DNA of 64,000 bases, taken from Gemmatimonadaceae bacterium. GTDB taxonomy: Bacteria; Gemmatimonadota; Gemmatimonadetes; Gemmatimonadales; Gemmatimonadaceae. Position 1 is the stretch's first letter. Each line of letters opens with the position of its first letter. The notes beneath the pieces are model-generated. The model saw only the letters and a program-made list of their open reading frames with translations. It was not told the DNA's origin and did no database searches. Below are positions 10,301 to 11,407 of this stretch, piece by piece. The DNA is taken from assembly GCA_035606695.1 (NCBI GenBank), contig DATNEW010000026.1:310001-374000 (forward strand), written 5' to 3'. Position numbers and translations under genes: made by a program.

Positions 10301-10802
10301 TGGGATCGCGCGGGTCGACGACGATGCGGCCGATGTGCTGCGACTTCGGGAGCATGGCGCTCGACCACGTCTTGCCGCCGTCGGTCGATTTGTAGACGCC
10401 CGTGCCCCACGACGAACTGCGCATGTTGTTCGATTCGCCCGTGCCGACCCAGATGACGTCGGGATTCGACGGCGCGACGGCGACGGCGCCGATCGAGCCC
10501 GTGCGCACGGAGTCGAACACCGGCGTCCAGCTGACGCCCGCGTTGGTCGACTTCCAGATACCGCCCGTTGCGGCACCCGCATAGATCACGTTGCCGATCT
10601 GCGCGCGCCCTGACTTGCTCTCGGCCACGGCGATGGCGGCGATGCGGCCCGACATGACGGCGGGTCCGATCGAACGGAACGCGAGCGAGCGCACGAGAAT
10701 CGAGTCCGCGGGGAGCGGGCGGTTCTGCGCATTCTGAGCGAGGGCGGGACTGGACGCCGCGACGAAAAGTGTGGCGAGCGCGGCGAGCGCGATGCGATGC
10801 AT
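7338..10802 (-). CDS. Secreted VPS10/sortilin-type BNR-repeat (glycosyl-hydrolase-like) protein
   Basis: 1154 residues from ATG 10802, which gives a clean signal peptide (MHRIALAALATLFVAASSPALA). The first ~730 residues are a beta-propeller built of BNR/Asp-box repeats, seen many times as STDGGKTW or KTTDGGKTWTN. They are followed by a beta-sandwich-like region and a C-terminal part with two Gly/Arg-rich low-complexity runs (about residues 854-899 and 1016-1061). Such proteins are abundant in Gemmatimonadota and Acidobacteriota; their ligand is unknown and glycosidase activity is not established. Sequence upstream of 10802 is a CGCCCATA tandem repeat rather than coding. A paralogue lies at 26674-30123. 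Confidence 0.85.
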   Translation of the reverse strand: MHRIALAALATLFVAASSPALAQNAQNRPLPADSILVRSLAFRSIGPAVMSGRIAAIAVAESKSGRAQIGNVIYAGAATGGIWKSTNAGVSWTPVFDSVRTGSIGAVAVAPSNPDVIWVGTGESNNMRSSSWGTGVYKSTDGGKTWSSAMLPKSQHIGRIVVDPRDPNIVYVAALGPLWASGGDRGLYKTTDGGKTWTNTKQISKYTGFGELVMDPSNPDVLYAASEQRERREYGFLPAGTEAAIYKTTDGAKTWTKLAGGLPNGEIGRVGLSVCKSRPSVLYAMVHAKAPENGLYRTDDAGASWKHVNDVNGTAWYYSQVICDPTDPDHVVTLNANSRESHDGGRTFTPFAAGNGIHTDHHALWINPENADQMMLGSDGGLYQSYDAGKSWDHVESIVAGQFYSIAVDDAQPFYNVYGGLQDNQTWGGPSRTRNSFGPTNADWFRMAGGDGFFAVPDPADHEIVFAESQQGGVVRYDARTGQTKNIRPTPTPPERYRFNWSAPILPSMHAPKVVYMAANYLFRSNDRGDTWEKISPDLTRGIDRNTLALREGVPDSTALGRNEGTAEFSNITTIDESGFRAGELAVGTDDGIIQVTRDGGKSWTKADHFAGVPDTTFVSRVVWSKTNEGTLYATFDGHRSNDFHPYVYRSTDFGKSWTSITGDLPDGGATQVVREHPRTANLLFAGTEFGVFFTTDGGTHWTQLKSGIPGVEVADIQIQPRANDLVVGTHGRGIYILDDITPLEHLAKARAALQSSVAYLVPVQDALLFQPNGSRNSGMGTRGFSGQNPEPGPHITYALNAPTDAKVSLSILDNAGTEVRELPVSKQPGMHRITWDMRVGPPLTAPVDTLTLNAANAGGRGGRGGRGGGGGGGAPADSAGRGAGGFGGGFGGGRGGNAEPMFPALPGRYVARLTVTPTTGAPTVLTQSFALTKDPMVTLSETELKQLYAFRLDVTKLQRTLRERQAQLDTAQRVFAAAKRAADSSGTKVTPELKTQIAAVEKELADVNRELGVAGGGRGGFGGGGGGGGGGRGAVVANAGRGGAGGRGGRGAGATQAGQPASAEPGRGAGAAPVEDEQTPAQQQTPQTIQARLGTTTEMLNVTFNPSPAQKKTVQALPAEIDKQAARVKKVSTTDLPALIKALKDAGVEVKAP

Positions 10803-10803
10803 A

Positions 10804-10843
10804 GGCGGGCGTATGGGCGTGTAGGCGCGTGGACGTATGGGCG
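10804..10843 (-). repeat. CGCCCATAC-type tandem repeat directly before the VPS10-like start
   Basis: On the minus strand the 40 nt before ATG 10802 read as degenerate units of CGCCCATACG, ending CGCCCGCCT then ATG. The same arrangement precedes the divergent OsmC-family gene and the M13 peptidase. Confidence 0.75.
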
Positions 10844-10920
10844 ACAAGCCAAAGGCGGGCGATTGGCTATGATATTGTACGGCCTTGCACGCGCCTTCGC
10901 TGGGGTTAGGTTCGCGGTTC

Positions 10921-10953
10921 ACGCCCATACGCCCATACGCCCATACGCCCGCC
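10921..10953 (+). repeat. CGCCCATA tandem repeat directly before the OsmC-family start
   Basis: Three 8-nt units CGCCCATA followed by CGCCCGCC end 4 nt before ATG 10958, where a Shine-Dalgarno would be expected. It mirrors the tandem at 10804-10843 that precedes the divergent gene. Confidence 0.8.
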
Positions 10954-10957
10954 TTTC

Positions 10958-11407
10958 ATGACCGCCCCCCCGACCACCCTCCGCGAATACACCATCGCCG
11001 CCCAATCGACCGACATCTTCGGCCGGGTGCTGTGCAGCGCGCGCGACCATCATTTCATCGTCGACGGACCGGCGCAGAACGGCTGTCCGGGCGAGGAGAT
11101 CACGCCGGTCGAGCTGTTTCTGTCGGCGGTGGCGGCGTGCGGCGTCGAGCTGATTCATGTGATCGCCAGGACCGAGAACAAGCCGCTCGACAAGGTCGCG
11201 GTGAAGATCTACGGCGCCAACGATCGCACCAAACAGGCGCGCACGGACGTCACGTTGCTCAATACCGTCCGCGTGGACTTCACGCTGACGGGCTGTGACG
11301 ATGCAACCGCCGCGGCGCTCGTGGAGAGTTTCAAGCGGCGGTGACCCCTCTACGGCACGGTCGCGGTCGCGACCCCGGATGTCGTCGTCACGTATCGTGT
11401 GGGCTAG
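10958..11407 (+). CDS. OsmC-family peroxiredoxin-like protein with in-frame TGA (candidate selenoprotein)
   Basis: OsmC/Ohr proteins reduce organic peroxides in the cytoplasm using two thiols. The block NGCPGEEITPVELFLSAVAAC (residues 41-61) is the OsmC core, with Cys61 in the peroxidatic position. The conventional ORF stops at TGA 11342-11344 (residue 129). From my knowledge of the family, a redox Cys-Pro motif (CPxYGT) is expected there. Reading TGA as an amino acid continues the frame with PLYGTVAVATPDVVV to TAG 11405-11407, giving 149 residues with the expected C-terminal strand. Either selenocysteine is inserted (see the hairpin at 11359-11374) or a single-base nonsense mutation truncated the gene. 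Without readthrough the coding part is 10958-11344. Confidence 0.8.
11342..11374 (+). promoter_or_regulatory. TGA codon plus SECIS-like hairpin (candidate)
   Basis: TGA at 11342-11344 is followed by GGTCGC (11359-11364), loop GGTC (11365-11368) and GCGACC (11369-11374), a perfect 6-bp stem. The loop starts 20 nt after the TGA and begins with G-G. Bacterial SECIS elements are described as having the apical loop about 16-37 nt downstream with a G in its first two positions, so this fits. In DNA this GC-rich such short stems arise by chance, so confidence is moderate. Confidence 0.45.

Follow-up and report, generated by a model that had tools for sequence, protein, structure and literature searches.

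An in-frame TGA in an OsmC-family gene

The 64,000-nt stretch of DNA analyzed here (the window; positions 310,001 to 374,000 of contig DATNEW010000026.1, from a Gemmatimonadaceae bacterium) contains a gene of the OsmC family whose reading frame is interrupted by a TGA, raising the question of whether this codon ends the protein or is decoded as selenocysteine (Sec). The frame opens with ATG at 10958–10960, halts at TGA 11342–11344 directly after FKRR, and continues in frame as PLYGTVAVATPDVVVTYRVG up to TAG at 11405–11407, confirming the layout on which the original prediction of a selenoprotein at this locus was based. The features referred to throughout are as follows:

10958..11407, plus strand: readthrough gene, 149 aa, OsmC family (PF02566), with predicted Sec at residue 129
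11138..11140, plus strand: TGC codon for Cys61, where OsmC/Ohr proteins have their peroxidatic Cys; unchanged across the subfamily
11342..11344, plus strand: in-frame TGA, predicted Sec codon, residue 129; TGA in 12 genes, TGC in 3
11345..11407, plus strand: coding sequence after the TGA, with stop TAG; third-position divergence in most comparisons
11359..11374, plus strand: SECIS-like hairpin, 6-bp stem GGTCGC/GCGACC, loop GGTC; considered on the basis of conservation and the bSECIS model

When read through the TGA, the frame scores 43.6 bits (E = 4.2e-11) against the Pfam OsmC profile, passing the gathering score of 27.5, as against 31.3 bits when ended at the TGA. That the truncated protein still matches the profile, and that the mechanically called open reading frame ends at this codon, are both in keeping with a true stop, in which case the protein would end at residue 128, and what follows would be a tail lost recently or an artifact of sequencing.

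Flanked by a divergent Sortilin/BNR-repeat gene (minus strand) and, downstream, a glycosyl-hydrolase-18 gene (minus strand), the gene stands alone, and its context therefore adds no functional hint. Upstream, between the gene and the BNR-repeat gene, repeated GCCCATAC/GTATGGGC units at 10800–10955 make the intergenic region inverted-repeat-like and yield spurious sub-threshold microRNA matches.

Selenocysteine machinery of the source genome

The original prediction had proposed a search of the genome for selA, selB, selC, and selD, and all four are present in the source assembly (50 contigs, 99% complete). The selA gene scores 562 bits, and tRNA-Sec (selC) scores 70 bits and is called by ARAGORN as tRNA-SeC with anticodon TCA. 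Adjoining selC is selD (381 bits), which has an in-frame TGA of its own at the catalytic position (CAGUAAK). The selB gene (244 bits, over the cut-off) is split across contigs C47 and C22: one part (L009) is found where C47 ends and the other (L010) where C22 begins, the two contig ends carry the same 15 bp, and the parts match profile positions 1–75 and then 73–338. Given the shared 15 bp and the continuing profile positions, we take selB to be one intact gene, interrupted solely by the contig break. The selD gene (L020; G000:C22:74432-75352) lies ~100 bp upstream of selC, and an ordinary gene finder would cut it short at its TGA.

Homologues and exchange of TGA with cysteine codons

A compact subfamily emerged when 298 genomes of the phylum and 179 genomes of the family were searched. 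Besides the window gene, it comprises 11 homologues that share the TGA and three that have TGC in its place (L031, L032, and L093); identity to the window protein ranges from 50 to 72% among ten aligned members. Alignment of homologues at this codon, a check proposed along with the original prediction, thus returns TGA in 12 genes and Cys in 3. The TGA forms occur in seven of the family's genera, one of them (L088) in a different species of the genus to which the window belongs, and one further TGA homologue (L054) comes from outside the family, in a MAG labelled Betaproteobacteria (G374). In the Cys forms, the motif reads CPLYGT/S, with TGC in place of the TGA of the window gene, and two of them (L031 and L032) are ~50 to 54% identical to the window protein over its full length. 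Both forms occur in genus g10, with TGA in genomes G155 and G257 and TGC in G029 and G361. On the tree of the subfamily, the Cys label needs two changes, whose direction is not fixed. A class-wide search around the MAG holding L054 returned no further subfamily members, and tblastn against plasmids returned distant haloarchaeal OsmC proteins alone.

The frame past the TGA is open in every TGA homologue, with no decay after the codon. Relative to the window gene, changes after the TGA at codon positions 1/2/3 amount to 1/0/7 and 0/1/6 in L027 and L028, and the weakest third-position bias is that of L092 (4/3/7). Since the differences after the TGA fall mainly at third positions in most pairwise comparisons, we conclude that this stretch is translated. 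A true stop is difficult to reconcile with these observations: the same TGA recurs in 12 genomes, the sequence past it is intact and diverges mostly synonymously, the codon exchanges with Cys, and the Sec machinery of the genome is complete. We therefore consider termination at residue 128 highly improbable. The recent C-to-stop mutation that the original prediction had kept as its alternative is contradicted by the same distribution, the TGA being neither strain-specific nor a sequencing error; nor did we find any of the circumstances that had been named as evidence against Sec, as the sel genes are present and there is no decay after the stop.

An open frame after the TGA would also be expected if the codon were read as Trp or another standard residue, through suppression or a change of code. 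Homologues, however, have Cys at codon 129 and never Trp or Arg, and the tRNA that ARAGORN finds, with anticodon TCA, is tRNA-Sec, such that this form of readthrough has a negligible probability.

Among the genomes of the family with TGA forms, 10 of 11 have tRNA-Sec and selA over the cut-off, the exception being G336, which is 72% complete. In a distant, class-level genome with a Cys form (G223), searches for tRNA-Sec and selA found neither. No selA match was obtained in the 1.7-Mb MAG G374, which holds the TGA gene L054. This MAG carries two different TGA-bearing OsmC genes, L054 and a member of the known selenoprotein family NF041052 (L101); because of the latter, G374 probably belongs to a Sec user whose assembly is incomplete, with a mixed bin as the named alternative.

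A conserved SECIS-like hairpin downstream of the TGA

The original prediction had placed a 6-bp hairpin with a GGTC loop at +20 and G in the first loop positions downstream of the TGA, and the hairpin is exactly as stated: 14 nt separate the TGA from the stem and 20 nt separate it from the loop, whose first two positions are GG. The bSECIS model, as quoted in PMC13188914, calls for a loop of 3 to 9 nt, a stem of 4 to 16 bp, G in the first two loop positions, a spacing of 16 to 37 nt, and a minimum free energy of ≤ −7.5. With a loop of 4, a stem of 6, GG, a spacing of 20, and −14.8 kcal/mol (for the fold of 43 nt from the TGA), the hairpin lies inside the bacterial SECIS window, as had been claimed. 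Its folding energy does not distinguish it from shuffled sequences (z from −0.04 to 1.3), and its stability is ordinary for GC-rich DNA. Rfam returned no SECIS match in the region, only sub-threshold microRNA noise.

What sets the hairpin apart is its conservation. All six pairs of the stem are kept in 12 of the 12 TGA genes, and in three of the pairs both bases have been exchanged: C-G for U-A in L029, G-C for C-G in L054, and G-C for A-U in L092, where I replaces V and V replaces T in the protein. One stem pair each is kept as a wobble in L030 and L092. Of 500 shuffles, 1 came out as high, a count that overstates significance owing to the kinship of the homologues; sliding the hairpin partners destroys both pairing and covariation. 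In the Cys genes of genus g10, two of the six pairs are left (computed for L032 and read by eye for L093). In the remaining Cys gene, L031, which has no Sec machinery alongside it, five of the six pairs persist, perhaps through descent from a Sec form or else through constraint on the coding sequence. Such constraint accounts for part of the hairpin, much of which overlaps the conserved peptide TVAVAT; given the protein and the local codon usage, such a hairpin is expected in ~16 to 32% of single genes.

Taken with the machinery, the exchange between Sec and Cys codons, and the selected sequence after the UGA, this covarying hairpin leads us to predict that UGA at codon 129 is almost certainly decoded as Sec, in support of the original prediction. 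The hairpin, 20 nt downstream, would direct SelB and tRNA-Sec to decode the UGA at this position. Standard annotation ends the gene at the TGA, so that only the first of the two predicted redox residues is left in the product.

Redox positions and proposed chemistry

Alignment to Ohr/OsmC sequences of solved structures places residue 61 at the peroxidatic position and residue 129 at the resolving position. Cys61, on the central helix, does not vary among subfamily members, whether Sec or Cys forms. What the TGA replaces is the second of the Cys residues conserved in OsmC proteins, within the motif UPLYGT of the window protein. The claim that the TGA stands in for the Cys of an OsmC CPxYGT motif holds with respect to the residue; the motif itself is typical of this subfamily and not of the OsmC family in general, Ohr having CPYSNA there. 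A structure model built on a two-row alignment (pLDDT of 68.6, low around residues 132–139) retrieved 25 PDB chains with Foldseek at E ≤ 0.001, nearly all of them named OsmC/Ohr, as are the best matches.

A close point of reference is the Ohr of Xylella fastidiosa (PMC5962072), whose redox residues Cys61 and Cys125 match residues 61 and 129 in position and whose fold the window protein shares by sequence and by Foldseek; the two differ in the resolving residue, which is Cys125 in Ohr and the predicted Sec129 in the window protein. By this analogy, Cys61 and Sec129 of the predicted selenoprotein would form a redox pair, as Cys61 and Cys125 do in Ohr. The window protein scores only 21.8 bits against the Ohr profile TIGR03561, below its cut-off of 88.85. 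Of the catalytic triad (peroxidatic Cys61, Arg19, and Glu51) and the resolving Cys125 of the Xylella enzyme (PMC5962072), both Cys positions have counterparts in the window protein, and the charged residues may or may not correspond to Arg23 and Glu52, which are both invariant in the subfamily; Glu52 is one residue off Ohr's Glu in the alignment (as read by eye), and the substrate or the peroxidase chemistry may for this reason differ from that of Ohr.

Judging from fold and family, the likely function is the reduction of organic hydroperoxides via Cys61 and Sec129, with recycling by a dithiol. In the scheme that we put forward, Cys61 would attack an organic peroxide and become a sulfenic acid, Sec129 would resolve this sulfenic acid as a selenenyl sulfide, and a dithiol, possibly that of a lipoylated protein, would reduce the Cys61-Sec129 bond. 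With Sec as the resolving residue, both resolution and re-reduction would be faster, and Cys61 would be protected from overoxidation. Our confidence in the details of this chemistry is about evenly balanced. The main variant on it swaps the roles, such that Sec129 would attack the peroxide and Cys61 would resolve, in line with most known redox selenoproteins (e.g., MsrA; PMC13188914), in which Sec is the attacking residue. Against such a swap stands the location of Cys61 at the peroxidatic position of the central helix and its invariance even in the Cys forms, and we view the swapped assignment as possible but somewhat doubtful.

Relation to known OsmC-like selenoproteins

Knowledge of OsmC-like selenoproteins dates back to 2005, in the form of a Sargasso Sea family with the motif UxxT (PMC1088965, PMC2398784, and PMC13188914). 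The remark in the original prediction that such proteins had already been reported is thus true, but those proteins carry Sec at the first Cys, unlike the window gene. The corresponding family, NF041052 (OsmC_like_Se), has in common with the window protein the OsmC fold (PF02566/COG1765), a TGA-encoded Sec, and the existence of Cys homologues. Its member L101 scores 154.9 bits and has its TGA in GFULLT, at the first (peroxidatic) Cys, and the Cys relatives of L101 read GFCLMT in three of four cases and AFCLMS in the fourth. The window protein, in contrast, scores 30.3 bits, below the curated cut-off of 95, and has Cys61 at the first position and its predicted Sec at the second, in UPLYGT, with no first-Cys UxxT. 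Judged by these profile and motif comparisons, the window protein is not a member of the NF041052 family.

We consider it fairly probable that the window gene represents a separate OsmC subfamily with Sec at the resolving position, that sister subfamilies of the phylum have Sec at the attacking position, and that Sec has more than one origin, with both ends of the redox pair affected. Our literature search turned up no account of an OsmC protein that carries Sec at its second Cys, although one may exist; OsmC goes unmentioned in the deep-Sep paper, which presents a list of new selenoprotein families. In the literature searched, nothing relevant and no selenoproteome study emerged for the Gemmatimonadetes lineage, to which a predicted selenoprotein group would be added. 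If Sec does occupy the resolving position here, OsmC proteins would constitute a natural test of what selenium does there as opposed to at the attacking position of a thiol peroxidase; the natural Cys forms, two of which share a genus with Sec forms, would serve as matched controls.

Other OsmC genes with in-frame TGA codons were observed elsewhere in the phylum. In other order-level genomes (L067 to L073 and L081), the TGA occupies the first Cys, in GAUTSMT or its variants GAUMSMT and GSUMSMT, and the second Cys is kept, in CPVHRT/CPVHHT; L067 scores 61 bits against NF041052, which is below the cut-off. Other class-level genomes (L074 to L079) contain an OsmC group with the TGA at the first Cys, in AAGULLGT, and the second Cys in KCPTA. 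The score of L074 against NF041052 is 38.9 bits, and this is probably another unannotated selenoprotein group.
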